64,000 nt of DNA from Nostoc sp. NMS2 (GTDB taxonomy: Bacteria; Cyanobacteriota; Cyanobacteriia; Cyanobacteriales; Nostocaceae): the NCBI RefSeq assembly GCF_017115105.1, contig NZ_JABXKH010000049.1:62001-126000 (forward strand), read 5' to 3'. The notes beneath the pieces are model-generated. The model worked only from the letters and a program-made list of their open reading frames with translations. It was not told the origin of the DNA and did no database searches. Each line of letters starts with the position of its first letter. Positions within the stretch are counted from its first letter, which is position 1. The translations under genes were made by a program, and so were the position numbers. Shown one piece after another: positions 1,073-10,551 of this stretch.

Positions 1073-1897
1073 CTAAACTTTTTTGGCAACGTGAAAAGCG
1101 GAGATATATGAGAGATGAAGACTGCCTCCAAAGTCATCTTCTATACTGTGTCTCAATCCTGCAAATAATGCTTCTTTGGTGTGTGGAGCTAACTTTAGGT
1201 ACGGCGAGTAAGTGTTTAAAAGCATTAAATATTCATCAACATTATATGTCACTTCCGATGCAAATCGCCCGGATATCAAATCTTTAAATTGACCCGAATC
1301 GATGGCCATATTGCCTAATCCTCTCAATATCTCTTCTTGGGTTTCTATGTCTTCATATCGATCAAGAGATGGAGCATATAGTTGATAGATTTGGGATAAC
1401 CGTTGATATACTTGATAGCAAGGTTGAAGTTCCTTGTTCCATAGTAAAATCAGGTAGCCACCTTGTTGTAGAGTACTTGCTGCTTTTGGATATCCTACTT
1501 CTTGTGATATCCAATGAAAAGAACTCGCTGCTAAGACGGCATCAAATTTAGAAGTCTGTAGCGCCCACTCTTCAAAAGATGTATTCTCAATCTCTACATT
1601 GGGATACGGTTGACAATTCTGTTGAGCTAACCGAAAAAAATCTGGGTTGGGTTCTAAGCAAACCATTGAGCAACCCAATTGAGCGAATGCTATCGTTGCA
1701 GTTGCAGGGCCACATCCTACTTCTAGAATTTTTGAGTTAGTGGAGAGTTGAGCAATTTCCACAACTTGGTGAATTAAATCCTCTGGATAGCGGGGTCGTG
1801 CCTTGTTGTAAGCCTCTGCTGCTGGAGAATACCAATTTTTTCGCTGTTCGAGGTCTTTACTGGAGTAGCTGATTATTGCTTGTTTTAAGTCTTCCAT
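1073..1897 (-). CDS. Class I SAM-dependent methyltransferase
   Basis: 274 residues. The SAM-binding motif I is ILEVGCGPATATIAFAQLGC at about residues 57-76, followed by the acidic end of strand 2 (CLEPNP) and motif II around FDAVLAASSFHWI. This is the Methyltransf_11/25 type seen in small-molecule methyltransferases. No domain shows the substrate. It is transcribed toward the HxlR regulator, so the two may be linked, but the gap contains no clear shared signal. Confidence is high for the fold and low for any specific role. Confidence 0.85.
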   Translation of the reverse strand: MEDLKQAIISYSSKDLEQRKNWYSPAAEAYNKARPRYPEDLIHQVVEIAQLSTNSKILEVGCGPATATIAFAQLGCSMVCLEPNPDFFRLAQQNCQPYPNVEIENTSFEEWALQTSKFDAVLAASSFHWISQEVGYPKAASTLQQGGYLILLWNKELQPCYQVYQRLSQIYQLYAPSLDRYEDIETQEEILRGLGNMAIDSGQFKDLISGRFASEVTYNVDEYLMLLNTYSPYLKLAPHTKEALFAGLRHSIEDDFGGSLHLSYISAFHVAKKV

Positions 1898-1992
1898 AAT
1901 CTACTTGGGGATAGCGCTTCAAATAAAGCAATGTGGAATTAATTTGAAGAAGGCAAAAGGCAAAGTTTTTACCTTTCAAGCTAGATGTTGAA

Positions 1993-2152
1993 GGGAGCAT
2001 CCACTTTTGGAAGAAACACTGGGCGATTGGAAATCGCGGCTACACAAACGAAGTCCGCCTACGCGGACTCTCTGAAACCCGCGCAGGCGGGTTTAGTTTG
2101 TATAGCCCCAGACTTCTAGTCTGAGGGCAATCTGCCAAAAGTGGATGCTCCC
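1993..2152. mobile_element. 160-bp MITE with 18-bp inverted ends and 9-bp target duplication
   Basis: The ends are GGGAGCATCCACTTTTGG (1993-2010) and its exact reverse complement (2135-2152). The 9-base sequence GATGTTGAA flanks the element directly on both sides (1984-1992 and 2153-2161), as expected for a target site duplication. The inside contains two further hairpins (GTCCGCCTACGCGGAC and AAACCCGCGCAGGCGGGTTT) and no reading frame. It is a non-autonomous element that would need a transposase from elsewhere. Confidence 0.85.
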
Positions 2153-2265
2153 GATGTTGAATGTTCTCAATTTTTTTAAAATTAGATACTCAACGATAAC
2201 TATATAGGAATCCGATTTGATTACTGTTCGCGCAGCGTGGCGTAGCCATACTTACTTGGGTAGGG

Positions 2266-2324
2266 AGGGAACAGGGAATAGGGAACAGGGAATAGGGAAC
2301 AGGGAATAGGAAAGAAGGGAATAG
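2266..2324. repeat. Short tandem repeats of GGGAACA/GGGAATA
   Basis: About seven iterations of the heptamers GGGAACA and GGGAATA lie just downstream of the ferritin-like gene. This is the short tandemly repeated repetitive (STRR) type known from heterocyst-forming cyanobacteria. Together with the MITE it fills most of the gene-free stretch 1898-2367. Confidence 0.7.
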
Positions 2325-2367
2325 ATGTGTACTGGGTTTTTTCAAAAATCAAATACGAGTCCTATAG

Positions 2368-3111
2368 TTACGTAGCTATCAACTCAGAATCGATTTCCGA
2401 CGGCGCACTATCTTGGACTAGCGATCGCGTTTCACCGTTATGGAGGATACCACCAACCATTGCTAACAAGGCGTTTACTTTGCGCGATCGCCACATATCT
2501 ACAAGTTTTTCCACTTTGGCAGCAGACATCCGTCGCATCATCGCTTCGTAGAGATAAGCAGCATGTCCAGTTTCATCTTGGGCAATACTTAGCATTCCTA
2601 ACTTCAAGTTACGACCGGTTGGCTCTTTATCAGGTAATACTTTCGCCATTCGCGCAAAGTCTTTACTAGCATCTAACTCAAGAATGTATGTGCTTGCCAT
2701 AAACACATCCCAGTCAATGACAGCAGGTTTAAGTTGTTCTTGGGTATAACCTTCAAAGAATGCTGCAAAAAATGGGCTACGCTGCTGTTGTGATTTGTTT
2801 GTGGTTGTAGTTTGGGGTTGACGCTTAAAATCTATAACTTGTTTATTCATCTGTTGTAAGGCGTGGGCAAAAACTTTACCATGCCTAGTCTCATCTGATG
2901 CGTGTTTTGCTAGTTTTTCGGCTAGCCATGTATCGCCTTCGGCAGAGGCGCGATCGCTAAGTGCAGATAAAAACGGCACAGAACCAGATTCGGCGAAATA
3001 AAACCCTGCAAGGATGTTGGGGCGGGTTTTAGAATCACGAATTTGAGCAGCAGAGTAATAGGCAAAAGCACCTGAACCAGCTAAATGCAGAATGTGAGTT
3101 AAGAAGTTCAT
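2368..3111 (-). CDS. Ferritin-like di-iron domain protein
   Basis: 247 residues, all helical. Carboxylate/His motifs typical of the ferritin-like fold are spaced along the chain: FAESGS (about residue 39), DETRHGK (about 73), ELDASKD (about 145) and QDETGHAAY (about 178). The two E-x-x-H pairs fit a di-iron site like that of rubrerythrins and related oxygen- or peroxide-handling proteins. No rubredoxin domain or signal peptide is seen. Substrate and partners are not visible, and the gene is monocistronic. Confidence 0.72.
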   Translation of the reverse strand: MNFLTHILHLAGSGAFAYYSAAQIRDSKTRPNILAGFYFAESGSVPFLSALSDRASAEGDTWLAEKLAKHASDETRHGKVFAHALQQMNKQVIDFKRQPQTTTTNKSQQQRSPFFAAFFEGYTQEQLKPAVIDWDVFMASTYILELDASKDFARMAKVLPDKEPTGRNLKLGMLSIAQDETGHAAYLYEAMMRRMSAAKVEKLVDMWRSRKVNALLAMVGGILHNGETRSLVQDSAPSEIDSELIAT

Positions 3112-3466
3112 CAGAAATTGCCACTGATAATTGGGAGGTTACAATTCTTATACTAATGTGCATTTTCTATTCGGGTGTCGGCAGAGGGCAGGGGGGAATT
3201 TTGGAAGTTGTTAAATCATCTCGCAAATATGCAATGCCCCATTTTGGATTTTGAATTGCTTGTGGCAATGATGTCAATGGTTAACAAATACAGCACCTTG
3301 CAAGTAAGTGAGGTACAAATGCAGGACTCACGCATTAGATAGATGTTCCTACCTCCTGCCTCCTGTCTCAAAACCCGTAGCTCTTTGTACTTCATGCAAA
3401 AGAAAACTGCTGTATATCTTTGCATTTTGCTAGTATCATCGCACAGAGGTAATTTGGTAAGTTTGG
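3112..3466. other. Gene-free stretch between the ferritin-like and nuclease genes
   Basis: A 69-codon minus-strand reading frame here has no family features and is rich in intergenic-repeat-like sequence, so it was not called. The stretch must hold the divergent promoters of the two neighbours, but no clear -10/-35 pair or operator was recognised. Confidence 0.5.
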
Positions 3467-4036
3467 ATGGAGAAATTAACTAAACCAGTACGATTTTTGC
3501 TGTGTGCAACAACTATCATCTTTTTGGGTTTGATGGGCTGCGATCGCTTTGTCAATACTTCTGGAGAACCAGTTGAGCGTGTGAGTGATGGCGATACTTT
3601 AGTAGTTAAAGATACAGATGGCAAAAATGTTACCGTGCGCTTTGCTTGTGTAGATGCGCCAGAAATAGCCCACTCTAATAAAGAAAAGCAGAGTAAACGC
3701 ACTAGCGATCGCAATCAATTTACTTGGGGTGTGAAAGCTCAAGAACGGGTGCAACAATTGGTGCAACAAGGAGGCAATCGCGTGACTTTGAATATCACAG
3801 ATAGCGATCGCTATAAACGCAAAATTGCCGAAGTTCGTTTACAAAATGGCACTTTTGTGCAGCAAGTATTGTTAAAAGAAGGATTGGCAAAAGTATATCG
3901 TCCTTATTTAAACAAGTGTCCTAGTAAAGACTTAGTTCAACAAGCCGAAGCTGAAGCCAAGGAACAACGTATTGGGATTTGGAGTGACACTAAATTTGTT
4001 AATCCTTGGGAATATCGCAGCTTATATAAAAAGTAA
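3467..4036 (+). CDS. Thermonuclease-family lipoprotein (SNase-like)
   Basis: 189 residues. The N-terminus is a lipoprotein signal: positive residues, a hydrophobic run, then the lipobox LMGC with Cys at about residue 25, so the protein is probably anchored outside the inner membrane. The staphylococcal nuclease fold follows: VSDGDTLVV, VRFACVDAPE (Asp of the calcium site), DRYKRKIAEV (catalytic Arg region) and LLKEGLAKVYRPY. An insert with the Lys/Arg-rich segment EKQSKRTSDRNQ lies after the DAPE motif, as in other cyanobacterial members. It likely degrades extracellular or periplasmic nucleic acid. The gene stands alone. Confidence 0.9.
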   Translation: MEKLTKPVRFLLCATTIIFLGLMGCDRFVNTSGEPVERVSDGDTLVVKDTDGKNVTVRFACVDAPEIAHSNKEKQSKRTSDRNQFTWGVKAQERVQQLVQQGGNRVTLNITDSDRYKRKIAEVRLQNGTFVQQVLLKEGLAKVYRPYLNKCPSKDLVQQAEAEAKEQRIGIWSDTKFVNPWEYRSLYKK

Positions 4037-4150
4037 AACAGGAGTCAGAATGGGCTAAACCCTAGCTATCCGCTAACAGGAGCGGAGCCGGAGACGCTCC
4101 GCCTCCGGTCAGAATTCAGAATTGGTGAATACTCTACGCATAAAGTCCCC

Positions 4151-5032
4151 TTACTCTTCTCCCCAGGTTTGTAGTTGCAAATAAACTAGTATCATCGTCA
4201 CTGCTAGTAATAACGTCGCTGCTGCTGCTGCATAACCAAAATCAAATTGACCAAAAGCCTCTTGATAAATGTAATAAACCAGCAAATTAGTCGAATTCAG
4301 TGGGCCACCGCCAGTCATCACATAAACTTGCTCAAAACTCCGCAATGTAAAAATCGCGGTAGTGATGATTGTAAATATCACAGTAGGGCGCAATCCAGGT
4401 AGAGTAATATACCAAAATTGTTGCCAAGCATTTGCTCCATCCAAATCTGCTGCTTCATAACGACTGGGAGGAATTGCTTGCAAGCCTGCTAAAAAAACTA
4501 CCATATTGAAACCCAGTTGTTTCCAAATACTCATTAAAATAATTATCGGCATTGCCCAAAATGTATCTCCTAGCCAGGGGATGGCTGGAATCCCAAAAAA
4601 ATCTAAAAGTCCGTTAGCTGGCCCTGATGTTTGAAACAGCCAGCGAAATCCCAAGCCGGCTGCCACAAGTGAGATAATTGAAGGTAGAAAATAAGCACTC
4701 CGCAGGATGCCCCGCAAGGGAATGGAGCGGTTTAATAGCACTGCCAATCCCAAGGAAATAACTAAACTGGGAATAATGGTGGCAACAGTAAAATAAATGG
4801 TGTTACCCAGAACTTGCCAAAAGTCAGGGTTGAGTAGCAAGCGCCAATAGTTTTTTAAGCCTATCCAATAAGTGCCTTTTAAGGTGAAACTACCAGCAGT
4901 AAAGCTGAGGTAAAACAAATAAGCGATCGGCCAAATGATAAAAGCACCCAGTAAAATTAGTGCTGGTGTGAGAAAAGTCCAGGCAGCTACTGTATCATTA
5001 TCCAACCATGACTTAGTATATTTTTTTGGCAT
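4151..5032 (-). CDS. Sugar ABC transporter permease (MalF/UgpA type)
   Basis: 293 residues with six predicted membrane segments. The cytoplasmic EAA loop that docks the ATPase is clear (EAADLDGANAWQQFWYITLPG, around residues 200-220). The N-terminus FLTPALILLGAFIIWPIAYLF is typical of the carbohydrate uptake family 1 permeases. The partner permease, binding protein and ATPase are not in the window, so the gene is an orphan here. A broken copy of its first 17 codons lies at 10652-10705, showing that the gene once lay next to purN in divergent orientation. Confidence 0.88.
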   Translation of the reverse strand: MPKKYTKSWLDNDTVAAWTFLTPALILLGAFIIWPIAYLFYLSFTAGSFTLKGTYWIGLKNYWRLLLNPDFWQVLGNTIYFTVATIIPSLVISLGLAVLLNRSIPLRGILRSAYFLPSIISLVAAGLGFRWLFQTSGPANGLLDFFGIPAIPWLGDTFWAMPIIILMSIWKQLGFNMVVFLAGLQAIPPSRYEAADLDGANAWQQFWYITLPGLRPTVIFTIITTAIFTLRSFEQVYVMTGGGPLNSTNLLVYYIYQEAFGQFDFGYAAAAATLLLAVTMILVYLQLQTWGEE

Positions 5033-5276: not shown

Positions 5277-5615
5277 TCAAACCAATCCCAAATGCAATTT
5301 CAACGCTGCATCAATTAGTACTATCAACTCTTCGTTTAAACTACCTAATACTTCACCAGTAATTCGTTGCTTAGAAATTGTTCGCACTTGCTGCGCCTGT
5401 ACTTTAGAAGGTTTTGTTAAACCACTAATCTCTGGATTAAGCAGAACTTCAAAGGGATAAACACGGCTCACATTAGAAGTAAGCGGTAAAATTGTCACAG
5501 TGGTAGCAGCACTATTACTTATATCATTACTGACAATTAGCACTGGACGACGTTTACCCATTTCTGAACCCATCACCGGACTAAGATTTGCGTAATAAAT
5601 ATCACCACGTTTCAT
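5277..5615 (-). CDS. MazF/PemK-family endoribonuclease toxin
   Basis: 112 residues, the normal size. The family start KRGDIYYANLSPVMGSEMGK, the RPVLIVSND strand and the QQVRTISKQRI segment are all present. MazF toxins cut single-stranded mRNA at short sites and are neutralised by the cognate antitoxin. Here the antitoxin gene lies just upstream and overlaps by 14 bases (5602-5615), the usual translational coupling. The pair sits in the accessory island, which it may help to stabilise (inference). Confidence 0.93.
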   Translation of the reverse strand: MKRGDIYYANLSPVMGSEMGKRRPVLIVSNDISNSAATTVTILPLTSNVSRVYPFEVLLNPEISGLTKPSKVQAQQVRTISKQRITGEVLGSLNEELIVLIDAALKLHLGLV

Positions 5616-5847
5616 CTGTTAAACCATCTGCCACCGTCACATCCCAATAGTTATCAACTTCAGCAGAGGCTTCTCGGTAAGCTGCCTCTAATTCTCGGTT
5701 TCGGAGCAATTCTAATGCTTCTTCAATTACTTGAGAACGAGATTTACATCCTTTATTGCGTTTGTAGTTTTCGACAAACTCCACTAAAGACGGTGGCAAG
5801 GAAATAGAGAGTTTTTCTACATTCATCTTCCTACCAATTAGTAGCAA
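5602..5847 (-). CDS. Ribbon-helix-helix antitoxin of the MazF pair
   Basis: 81 residues from a TTG start with a well-spaced AGGAA; an ATG at 5826 would give 74 residues and begins MNVEKLSISLP, but its purine stretch is immediately adjacent. The N-terminal half is a ribbon-helix-helix DNA-binding fold (KLSISLPPSLVEFVENY, then KSRSQVIEEALELL). The acidic C-terminal tail (YREASAEVDNYWDVTVADGL) is the part expected to wrap around the toxin. It likely also represses its own operon. The operator was not identified. Confidence 0.88.
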   Translation of the reverse strand: MLLIGRKMNVEKLSISLPPSLVEFVENYKRNKGCKSRSQVIEEALELLRNRELEAAYREASAEVDNYWDVTVADGLTDETW

Positions 5848-6405: not shown

Positions 6406-6783
6406 ATGAGTAAAAAACAAGAAAAACCCCTCAAATGGATTGCAAGCGCTCTTGATGATTTAAAAGATTTCCCTGAAGATGTGCAAGATGTAATGGGTTA
6501 TGCTCTGGATTTAGCACAACATGGTGAAAAGCATCCTGACGCAAAACCTTTGTATGGATTTACAGGCACTGGGGTTTTAGAAATTGTAGATGATTTTGAA
6601 GGAGATACATACAGGGCAATTTACACTGTTAAATTTGCAGGATTTGTTTACCTATTACATTCATTTCAAAAGAAATCAAAACACGGTATTGCTACACCAA
6701 AACAAGATATAGATTTAGTTAAAAAGAGACTCAAGGTTGCTCAGGAAGATTATTTACAAGAAATAGCAAAAACAGTGGAGTAA
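6406..6783 (+). CDS. RelE/HigB-type toxin (phage Gp49-like family)
   Basis: 125 residues. KPLKWIASALDDLKDFPEDVQDVMGYALDLAQHG followed by KPLYGF, GVLEIVDDFEGDTYRAIYTVKF and VYLLHSFQKKSKHG is the Gp49-like/DUF891 toxin pattern, a RelE-fold ribosome-dependent mRNA nuclease. The F-Q-K-K-S-K segment provides the basic residues used for RNA contact in the family. The antitoxin gene follows after 3 bases. Toxin-first order is typical of HigBA systems. Confidence 0.9.
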   Translation: MSKKQEKPLKWIASALDDLKDFPEDVQDVMGYALDLAQHGEKHPDAKPLYGFTGTGVLEIVDDFEGDTYRAIYTVKFAGFVYLLHSFQKKSKHGIATPKQDIDLVKKRLKVAQEDYLQEIAKTVE

Positions 6784-6786
6784 AAA

Positions 6787-7116
6787 ATGAGCAACGAAAA
6801 TGATGTTTATATTAGTAACGGAAATGTCTTTGCTGATCTAGGATTGTCTAATCCTGAAGAACGCTTAATTAAAGCAGAACTTGCACGCAAAATTAGTGAA
6901 ATTATTGCTAATCGCCAATTAAATCAAGTCCAAGCAGCCGAAGTTCTTGGAATAGATCAACCAAAAATATCTGCTTTAACTAGAGGGAAACTAAAAGATT
7001 TTTCAATAGATAGATTGATCAGATTTATAAATATTTTAGGTAATGATGTAGAAATTACAATTAAGCCTAAACCAGAAAGCCGTTCAATTGCTTGCACGAC
7101 TGTAGTTTGTGAATAA
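6787..7116 (+). CDS. HTH (XRE-family) antitoxin of the HigBA-type pair
   Basis: 109 residues. The HTH covers about residues 45-90: QLNQVQAAEVLGIDQPKISALTRGKLKDFSIDRLIRF, as in the HTH_37/HigA-2 family. The C-terminus (VEITIKPKP) is the usual short strand; the last ten residues (SIACTTVVCE) look like a read-through extension. It should bind and silence the upstream toxin and bind the palindrome at 6377-6394. Confidence 0.9.
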   Translation: MSNENDVYISNGNVFADLGLSNPEERLIKAELARKISEIIANRQLNQVQAAEVLGIDQPKISALTRGKLKDFSIDRLIRFINILGNDVEITIKPKPESRSIACTTVVCE

Positions 7117-7187: not shown

Positions 7188-7344
7188 ACAATTTTGGATG
7201 TTTTTTTAGTTGGAAGTCCCTAAACCTAATCCTAATTTGATCCACTCTGTTTTTTGAAAAAAAATTTAGATCGTTCCGCTTCGCTACAGTCAAAAAGAGT
7301 AAAGGAAAGAAGGGTAGAGGACAAAAGAGCTAGAGTGTAAAGGG

Positions 7345-10300
7345 CTAAGGAGTCCTCCCAACGGCAGAAACGACAACCCGAAAACCAAGATTGCTGTGGA
7401 TGAGGTCGCGCCCCACCCTAAAGTTGAGATTACGGGACGCGGAACGGCATTCTCCAGGAAGATCGTGCCAGGAACCGCCTCGCAGCATCCGAATTTTATT
7501 ATCATTATCTATCCATGCACTTCCATCACTAGGCGCTCCTTTATAGCTGTCATGCCAAGTATCTTGACACCACTCCCAGACATTCCCATGCATATCGTAT
7601 AATCCAAAGGCGTTGGGTGGAAAACTTTCTACTTCTGTTGTTTCTTGAAGATTTTTTCCTTTTGGTGCAGAAGCATAAGTGGAATCTCCCTCATAGTTAG
7701 CTAACTCAGTTGTAATCGTTTCGCCGAAGTGAAATGCTGTGGTTGTTCCTGCACGACAGGCGTATTCCCACTCTGCTTCACTAGGTAGGCAATAATTACG
7801 CCCAGCCTTTTGACTCAGCTTTTTGCAAAATTCCACTGCATCATTCCAGGACACTTGCTCTACAGGACGTTTTGCTCCCTTAAATTTGGACGGAGTGCTA
7901 ACCATTATTTGCTGGTACTGTTCCTGAGTCACTTCAAACTTGCCGATAAAAAAAGCAGGGACATTCACAACGTGCTGTGGTTCTTCATTTTTGGCTCGAC
8001 CATTTTCACCGGGTGGTGAACCCATATTAAAAGAGCCTTCAACAATCTGAACCATATCTAAAGTTATGCCATTGCCTAAGTCCTCCTTAAAGAACTTAGC
8101 TTGCTTGTTAGGCTCTCGTTTAATTACCTGTCCCTTTTTATTTACCGTTACCGTTTCAAACTTAAAGGGAATATATTTAGGTTCAGGTACAGAGATAGTT
8201 GTTGATTTATTAGTAGGTTGATTAGTAGGTTGATTAGCAGGTTCAATAATAGTAGATTGAGGTGTCGGTGATTGACCCTTAAAAATTTCACGACCTACTA
8301 CTGCTGTCACCAAACCTACACTTCCGAAGCCAGCCCATTTGAAAAACTTTTGTCGGGTTATTCGCTCTTGAGCCGGTTGAGTGGGTTGAACAGAGCTTGA
8401 CTGCTGCTGAATCGGAGGTTTAATTAATTCTTGGCTTGCTACAACTCTGGTTTCAATTCCAGTGATGTCCATCTGCTGTAATTTTTGGCGATATTCTGCT
8501 TCCTCCTGCTGCCGTTGTCTTTCTACCTCCTGCTTGTTTAGTCGTACAGCTTCTTCTTGTTGTTTTTCTGTCTGCTGCTGTCTGATTCTGTCTTGCTGTT
8601 TCCGGTATTCTGCTTTTGAAGATGATTGAATAATAATTGCTTCGATCGCAGCTATTTCCCCATCATTTAGTTCTAAAATTCGTTGAAAACGTTGAAGTTC
8701 TTCACGAGTAACGTCACTGAGAGGATATTCAAACTGCATCGACTCTCTAAACACCTCTTCATACTGTTGCAGCTTTTGCCGATGTTCCTCGATCGCAGCC
8801 ACAATTGGATTTTCAATTGCAGTCACATCCTCAGCAGTCAGATTCAACGCTTGATGACGTTGCGTTAGTTGAGAGCGGTTAAAAGCACTGAGCGGATATT
8901 CTTGCTGAATCGCTTCTGTAAACTCTTGCTCATATTGCCGCAAGTTTGCTTGATGTCTTTCAATCTCCGCATTAATCCGCCTCTCGATCGCCCCCACATC
9001 CCCTTCACTCAACCCCAACGTCTGCCACGTTTGCTGCAACTGCTTTTGCGTCACCTCATCTGGATAATGCTGGCGCTGCGTCGCCTTCACAAACGCCTGC
9101 TCGTACTGCTGGAGTTTTTGATGATAGCTTTCAATCTGTGTTGTGATTTGCGCTTCAATTGGTGCAACATCTACATCCGTCAGTCCCAAGCGCTGCTGCT
9201 GTTGACGTAAATCATTGCGGGTTGCCGCACTAAGGGGATATTCCTGCTGCGTGGCTGTAAAAAACAACTTTTGGTAGTCCTGGAGTTTTTGGTGATATGC
9301 CTCTACCTCAGTCGTAATCTGAGATTCAATTGCGGCAATATCTCCATCCGCAAGTTCTAATTGCTGCTGCGTTTGCCGTAAGCGATCGCGGCTTGCTGCA
9401 CTCAGAGGAAACTCCTGTCGTAGTGCCGTTGTAAACGCTTGCTGATATGTTTGCAGGTTTTGCTGATGCGTCTTAAACCGTGCAGTCACCAGTGCCTCAA
9501 TCGGCATCGTGTCCTCATTCCGCAGCCCCAAAATTTGCTGGAGATTTTGCAGATCGTGGCGATCGCTATCGGTAATTGTCTCATCTCGCTCCAGTAGTTC
9601 AGTAAACACCTGCTGATACTGCTGGAGTTTTTCGCCAAACTCGTTGCGATAAGGTTCCAACACCTCATCTTCGATCGCCTTTGCCTCAGTTGTCTCCAAT
9701 TCCAAGCGAGTCCTCAGTACATCCAATGTACGACGACCAACAAAGGAAATTTCGCCTCGATGAATAAATCGCGCTACCTCTTTACGGTATCGCTGTCTAG
9801 GATCGCCCGGAGCCACCTTTGTCAGCCGAATTTTAAAGCCTTCTCGAATTGCATAGATTTCCGGCTTCATCGCAGGTTGAAGTTCTCGCACCTTCTGACT
9901 GGCGTATTCATGGAGTTCATCGATGGAGATAAACTCATCGCGATCGCGATCGGCTTCTCCCGACTTGATACCTTCAACCAAAAAACGAGTGTAAATCGAT
10001 AAATCTTGCCCTTCCTCCTCAAAGGAATATTGAGTTGAAGTAGAAGAAGTCAATACGGCTCGTCCTTCACCGCCTAATTGTTCCCGAATGTCAATCATGC
10101 CGTCATCTTTGGCAGACATCCCCTCAGCAAAGGCACCACTAAAGCAGCTATCCAGGATTACCACCTGCCGACGGGAGCGGCTAAGACTCATACACTGTTG
10201 GATAAAGCGTGCTGCAACAGCAGTAGAACGAACTAATTCACCTTTGCTATTTTTGCGTGTTTTGCGCGTTGCCAAGTAAAGCTGTCCTAGATCATCCTTG

Positions 10301-10551
10301 ATGCCATGCCCTGAAAAGTAAAACAACACCAAGTCATCCTTTGGCTGATAGGTAAATAGACGCTCGATCGCTTCTTCTACATCTTGTCGCTCAGGATTTT
10401 TTAGCAGGGTAATATCTGACGCAGCAAATCCACCCATATCTGGATGCAAAAGCACCTCTCGCAACGCTTCTACATCCTTAACTGCACTAGGCAATGGGTT
10501 CAGCCCTGGCTCATACTCACTGATTCCAACCAGCAACGCTACCTTCACCAT
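7345..10551 (-). CDS. Caspase-like protease fused to helical repeats, membrane anchor and FGE-sulfatase domain
   Basis: 1068 residues. Domains in order: a C14 caspase-like (orthocaspase) domain at about 1-240, with the catalytic His in FYFSGHG and Cys in ILDSCFSGAF; six tandem helical repeats of about 57 residues (about 290-630), each with a Q-x-Y-x-x-x-F core and a LGL..DVxxIE end; a Gln/Glu/Arg-rich coiled coil (about 630-700); one hydrophobic segment (FFKWAGFGSVGLVTAVVGR, about 737-755); and an FGE-sulfatase/C-type-lectin-like domain (about 825-1068) with MGSPPGE, EVTQEQY, LPSEAEWEYACRAG, GNVWEWCQD and RMLRGGSW. In cyanobacteria such FGE domains usually serve as ligand-binding folds. The last 45 codons have the composition of a DGR variable region (see findings). 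A likely sensor-effector protein: the outer lectin-like part senses and the caspase part cuts. Confidence 0.88.
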   Translation of the reverse strand: MVKVALLVGISEYEPGLNPLPSAVKDVEALREVLLHPDMGGFAASDITLLKNPERQDVEEAIERLFTYQPKDDLVLFYFSGHGIKDDLGQLYLATRKTRKNSKGELVRSTAVAARFIQQCMSLSRSRRQVVILDSCFSGAFAEGMSAKDDGMIDIREQLGGEGRAVLTSSTSTQYSFEEEGQDLSIYTRFLVEGIKSGEADRDRDEFISIDELHEYASQKVRELQPAMKPEIYAIREGFKIRLTKVAPGDPRQRYRKEVARFIHRGEISFVGRRTLDVLRTRLELETTEAKAIEDEVLEPYRNEFGEKLQQYQQVFTELLERDETITDSDRHDLQNLQQILGLRNEDTMPIEALVTARFKTHQQNLQTYQQAFTTALRQEFPLSAASRDRLRQTQQQLELADGDIAAIESQITTEVEAYHQKLQDYQKLFFTATQQEYPLSAATRNDLRQQQQRLGLTDVDVAPIEAQITTQIESYHQKLQQYEQAFVKATQRQHYPDEVTQKQLQQTWQTLGLSEGDVGAIERRINAEIERHQANLRQYEQEFTEAIQQEYPLSAFNRSQLTQRHQALNLTAEDVTAIENPIVAAIEEHRQKLQQYEEVFRESMQFEYPLSDVTREELQRFQRILELNDGEIAAIEAIIIQSSSKAEYRKQQDRIRQQQTEKQQEEAVRLNKQEVERQRQQEEAEYRQKLQQMDITGIETRVVASQELIKPPIQQQSSSVQPTQPAQERITRQKFFKWAGFGSVGLVTAVVGREIFKGQSPTPQSTIIEPANQPTNQPTNKSTTISVPEPKYIPFKFETVTVNKKGQVIKREPNKQAKFFKEDLGNGITLDMVQIVEGSFNMGSPPGENGRAKNEEPQHVVNVPAFFIGKFEVTQEQYQQIMVSTPSKFKGAKRPVEQVSWNDAVEFCKKLSQKAGRNYCLPSEAEWEYACRAGTTTAFHFGETITTELANYEGDSTYASAPKGKNLQETTEVESFPPNAFGLYDMHGNVWEWCQDTWHDSYKGAPSDGSAWIDNDNKIRMLRGGSWHDLPGECRSASRNLNFRVGRDLIHSNLGFRVVVSAVGRTP

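Follow-up and report, generated by a model that had tools for sequence, protein, structure and literature searches.

Cyanobacterial remote variable proteins with orthocaspase parts are known (Vallota-Eastman et al. 2020, PMC7517822), and that study describes them with a C-terminal CLec, an orthocaspase N terminus, a variable region (VR) at the 3' end of the gene and no adjoining reverse transcriptase (RT), all as at the locus studied here. Those remote proteins are, however, tied to a diversity-generating retroelement (DGR) of the same genome by template (TR) identity, whereas no such TR was found in G000, the genome to which our locus belongs. According to the same study, all3226 of Nostoc sp. 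PCC 7120, a paralog, likewise has remnant TR-VR homology with no RT genes or pseudogenes nearby, and its authors suggest that the diversifying parts were removed once a variant had been chosen. PCC 7120 nevertheless still carries two DGRs (PMC7517822), whereas G000 yields only a truncated RT fragment.

Leftover targets have also been described outside the cyanobacteria. In Treponema denticola (PMC4891356), isolates without the core DGR likewise carry VRs that differ mostly at the template adenines of other isolates; these targets, with neither RT nor TR in the genome, are lipoproteins from another phylum, unlike the protein studied here. Incomplete loci with remote targets of related DGRs are likewise found in Thiohalocapsa PB-PSB1 (Dore et al. 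2024, PMC10907252), where the targets combine FGE-type sensors and caspase-like effectors, as here. In contrast to our case, that paper reports that a complete DGR remains for each class and that diversification in trans is seen. Adenine-specific mutation is reported from cultured Nostoc punctiforme (PMC12691664). Orphaned DGR targets are already known in the literature, and the VR of the caspase-FGE gene adds a case that is well resolved by comparison. It would provide an example, dated by comparison, of the aftermath of targeted hypermutation, in which the receptor that had been diversified survives in a single fixed form.

Domain structure and variable region of the caspase-FGE gene

The window, i.e. 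the whole stretch of 64,000 nucleotides that was analysed, covers positions 62001-126000 of contig C181 in an assembly of 7.57 Mb and 183 contigs. Labels are those of this analysis: G000 is the window's own genome, G### are genomes of relatives, L### loci and C### contigs. The features of the locus are collected in Table 1.

Table 1. Features of the caspase-FGE locus in window coordinates
Feature	Position	Strand	Basis
Caspase-FGE gene, probable former variable protein	7345..10551	minus	1068 aa ORF and Pfam
Peptidase_C14 (caspase) domain, residues 3-232	9856..10545	minus	Pfam, E 5.8e-20
FGE-sulfatase / C-type-lectin-like domain, residues 832-1060	7372..8058	minus	Pfam, E 8.2e-56
Variable region (VR) RGGSWHDLPGECRSASRNLNFRVGRDLIHSNLGFR, 35 codons	7378..7482	minus	Alignment with related templates and orthologs
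Conserved VR 3' end GGTTTTCGGGTTGTC	7372..7386	minus	Sequence comparison
Pyrimidine-rich tract right behind the VR	7292..7347	minus	Common to VRs of intact cassettes
TAGCGAAGCGGAACGATC element, in place of the G+C stem-loop of other cassettes	7269..7286	minus	Motif match
T run after the TAGCGAAGCGGAACGATC element	7256-7267	minus	Sequence

By sequence, the FGE part matches the solved structures of PvdO (5hha, E 2.6e-41) and Treponema denticola variable protein 1 (2y3c, E 4.9e-26), and the VR lies at the 3' end of the gene, within the predicted C-type-lectin fold. The caspase part has both SGHG (residue 80) and DSCFSGA (residue 134); we take these to be the sites of the catalytic His and Cys. 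Ahead of the VR the gene has a pN/pS of 0.23, suggesting that it is maintained as a protein under purifying selection. Two small-gene pairs adjoin it (window 6406-7116 and 5277-5847), toxin-antitoxin-like by eye.

The original prediction placed a DGR-type VR at the 3' end of this gene, pointing to an intact frame RGGSW..CRSA.R...GFRVV in the last lectin segment and to intervening codons that all end in C or T. The frame is intact and was located at 7372-7482, and we agree that FGE-type folds are the usual class of DGR target in cyanobacteria. The named codons are present as well, but the description of their endings was selective, as GGA, GAA, AGG, GTG and GGG occur in the same stretch; the TCC codon, moreover, corresponds to an invariant serine of the best related template (L150, see below). 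When every codon with an A at position 1 or 2 of the L150 template was taken, 14 of 18 ended in C or T, compared with 45% gene-wide (binomial p = 0.005). The codon-ending argument by itself is weak. The assignment is backed instead by comparison with real templates and syntenic orthologs, which at the level of sequence confirms the last lectin segment as a DGR-type variable region. As had been stated, the window holds no RT; it also has no second copy of, or template-like match for, the VR 3' end.

Comparison with templates of relatives

A contig scan yielded 80 relatives, six of which had an adjoining RT bearing GxxxSQ and YVDD in the stretches fetched. At four of these six loci the script gave a clear VR/template pairing, with 12-19 adenine mismatches and 0-1 others; no template was seen for L051, and the row for L083 was unclear. 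A DGR RT search of 217 family genomes returned 54 that match at E <= 1e-60, of which 10 belong to the genus (53 genus genomes). The loci fetched gave 37 template-like sequences in total, and 35-codon templates, the exact length of the VR, lie beside the DGR RTs of L036, L146 and L150. The VR shares both length and frame with a known template class.

The best match was the 35-codon template of L150 (RGGSWNNNPKNCRSASRNNNNRAERDNINNNIGFR), which belongs to another genus. Over 105 nt the VR is changed at 18 of its 33 adenines and at 8 of the 72 other bases (Fisher p = 4.6e-6), and over 117 nt at 18/33 adenines versus 13/84 others (p = 3.8e-5). The other two 35-codon templates (those of L036 and L146) gave 17/32 versus 11/73 and 16/31 versus 13/74. 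True VR/TR pairs of equal length at RT-bearing loci are cleaner, as 21 of 25 have no non-adenine difference and the maximum is three. The L150 template is therefore best regarded as a relative of the lost template, judging from these alignments, and not as that template itself. No cognate template of the VR was found among the 37 template-like sequences or in the searches of G000.

Syntenic orthologs and the kinase-FGE paralog

The caspase-FGE gene has an ortholog in seven other genomes of the genus, all seven syntenic with G000, so that a syntenic protein with a C-terminal DGR-type VR is found in at least eight species. Among 27 ortholog pairs (the pair G000-G017 excluded), amino acid identity was 45-66% in the VR versus 82-90% in the 180 residues before it. 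Five VRs could be compared in one register once an inserted codon in the VR of G013 had been omitted. In the nine pairs among them other than G000-G017, 16-24 of the 35 adenine sites differ. The VRs of G013, G016 and G038 differ from one another at only 2 of 70 non-adenine sites, and those of G000 and G017 differ from these three at 7-8 of 70. The same segment of the kinase-FGE paralog, used as a control, is 91-100% identical in seven of eight genomes (G038 was left out, as the script found no motif at its kinase locus).

Element downstream of the variable region

Behind the VR, the tract reaches up to 43 pyrimidines per 50 nt, compared with 25 behind the kinase-FGE control, and the TAGCGAAGCGGAACGATC element is the sole match in the window with up to three mismatches (0.01 expected). 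The tract, the TAGCGAAGCGGAACGATC motif and the T run also occur in G017, G004 and G041, where they follow the VRs of intact cassettes, whereas the kinase-FGE paralog of G000 has neither a pyrimidine tract nor a TAGCGAAGCGGAACGATC element behind its segment. According to the script the element forms no stem of at least five pairs; in other cassettes this place is taken by a G+C stem with 5-6 pairs. Homing of phage BPP-1 requires a hairpin behind the VR (PMC3240598), and by analogy the TAGCGAAGCGGAACGATC motif may do the same job. The conserved VR 3' end would likewise occupy the position of an initiation-of-mutagenic-homing site; after GTTGTC at this end, the bases are unlike those of the related templates. 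A TAGCGAAGCGG match was observed on C103, a contig without an FGE gene.

Probable loss of reverse transcriptase and template in G000

Six RVT_1 matches were obtained in G000, five of the group II intron type (GxxxSP and YADD) and one partial without the motif pair. The intron-type RTs were ruled out as servants of the VR by their motif, GxxxSP and not GxxxSQ, which we assume to mark the type of RT. A long ORF in L023 (G000:C161, 3921-6476) matches an RT domain over no more than its first 84 positions (of 205). Querying G000 with a DGR RT gave only a truncated 5' fragment on C162, in addition to weak matches to the intron RTs. The fragment (C162:84013-84123) matches at 76% over residues 3-39 in an open frame of 48 aa. 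Nor was a template detected in G000 with the VR DNA, the L036 template DNA, the L036 peptide or the L150 template with its 3' flank, although these queries do detect the template of G017, and the L036 peptide and the L150 query with flank also an orphan template in G013. The gene had been proposed as a remote target. A DGR would indeed have acted on it from elsewhere, but neither a DGR RT nor an adenine-rich template was found by these searches of the assembly, so that a current remote target is not borne out and this check speaks against activity.

The C162 fragment belongs to a DGR wreck in the window's own genome (L113, G000:C162:80000-96000, positions 1480-4121). It consists, in order, of a TIR-FGE gene ending in a VR, a bAvd-like ORF as the Avd accessory gene (PF22296, E 4.6e-19) and about 35 RT codons. 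Its VR differs from the template class of G047 at 14 of 26 adenines and 1 of 70 other sites. After these codons the RT joins what is, in G047, G003 and G009, the sequence behind the template; the 1,264-1,406 missing bases comprise the TR and all further RT codons. This junction indicates that G000 has lost at least one DGR by deletion. As it stands, the C162 cassette was rejected as the VR's own DGR, since its template class has 32 codons and the VR 35; a second template, of 35 codons, would thus have been lost from G000 as well.

Present state of the variable region

In the closest relative, G017, the RT looks complete and there is a template of 33 codons. The G017 copy of the caspase-FGE VR, at 35 codons, no longer has the tract and element behind it. 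Amino acid identity between G000 and G017 is 86% in the VR and 95% in the preceding 180 residues. The two VRs differ at 9 of 105 bases, namely 4 of 35 adenine sites and 5 of 70 others, which is no adenine bias (p = 0.48), and the divergence resembles that of the gene at large (8.3% ahead of the VR). Change at adenine sites is significantly lower than in the other pairs (4/35 versus 16/35, p = 0.003; versus 24/35, p = 2e-6). The expectation that strains vary only at adenine-derived sites thus holds mainly among the older orthologs and fails between G000 and its nearest relative. This low and unbiased change argues that adenine-targeted rewriting of the VR has stopped. On the other hand, the VR diverges more than the adjoining FGE part (9/105 versus 18/570, p = 0.025), which counts against a strictly frozen state.

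On these comparisons, the VR is very probably orphaned and now fixed: what remains of a familiar type of system that is no longer at work. An RT/Avd complex would have copied a 35-codon template into the caspase-FGE gene with random bases wherever the template has adenine (mutagenic retrohoming). The lectin pocket would thereby have been varied, and its variants possibly fed the caspase effector. The DGR would have been lost before G000 and G017 split, and the last VR variant retained as the ordinary binding surface of an intact protein.

Synonymous divergence (pS) between G000 and G017 is 0.068 in the FGE part but 0.464 in the gene's caspase part (window 7345-10551 versus L175), so that recombination of the gene end between lineages is possible and would blur the timing. 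The VR might then have ceased to change long after the two species separated, or long before, the near-identity of the two genomes reflecting recombined FGE ends. We consider this unlikely, as synteny between G000 and G017 extends over the entire neighbourhood, with 90-97% identity, and the VR is, if anything, above the FGE part in divergence.

Still less probable is that the VR remains an active remote target, served by an RT and template located in a gap of the assembly or on a plasmid that has been lost. A cassette of G000 hidden in a gap is possible with 183 contigs; the VR still has an intact cis element behind it, and VRs away from an RT occur in related genomes too. Against this, assembly completeness is 99.74%, four queries gave no TR, and G005 and G016, assembled in 6 and 10 contigs, carry the ortholog and are also without an intact DGR RT; in addition, the change relative to G017 shows no adenine bias. 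That no DGR ever acted, and that selection diversified an ordinary lectin loop, can practically be dismissed: FGE-like lectins do vary in their loops and codon endings prove little alone (p = 0.005), but among the older orthologs only 2 of 70 silent or constant positions changed while adenine sites are saturated (16-24/35), the kinase-FGE paralog is conserved and shows no such variation, and the VR has the downstream element.

Reverse transcriptases and RT-less cassettes in relatives

Among the eight ortholog-bearing genomes, a DGR RT is intact in G017, occurs as fragments in G000, G005 and G013, and was not detected in G016, G020, G032 and G038. When 12 genomes were searched for RVT_1 and 80 RT loci inspected for their motifs, GxxxSQ was found only in G017's own RT; 13 of these loci lacked the motif pair, and some RVT_1 matches had no locus. 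In G013, which has no intact DGR RT in its genome, an orphan template-like repeat was observed near dnaA-like and protease-like ORFs (L258, G013:C233, about 4333-4440).

Tentatively, and with the odds somewhat against it, DGR targets in this genus may outlive the enzyme as a rule: RTs and templates would come and go, departure of the DGR would leave its targets fixed as dedicated receptors, and some RT-less TR/VR cassettes would persist, to be rewritten in trans at any time that an RT is available. If so, G000 and G017 would represent complementary uncouplings of one target. In G000 the cis element is kept and RT and TR are gone, whereas in G017 RT and TR are kept and the target, without its downstream element, does not match the template. 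With syntenic orthologs at several stages of coupling and uncoupling within one genus, the idea that a DGR is lost after selection of a good variant becomes testable.

RT-less cassettes were observed in five sister species that have a caspase-FGE gene in common (L127 in G045, L134 in G040, L138 in G028, L139 in G018 and L142 in G024). The template lies 315-327 bases downstream of the gene, with no Avd or RT between, and no DGR-type RT was detected in the five genomes. Their TR/VR pairs show 10-18 adenine differences and, in the above order of genomes, 5, 4, 0, 14 and 2 others. At a few repeat sites (e.g. 26 and 74), a change in the TR of one lineage is also found in its VR, the pattern predicted for an RT that acted in trans once the lineages had separated.
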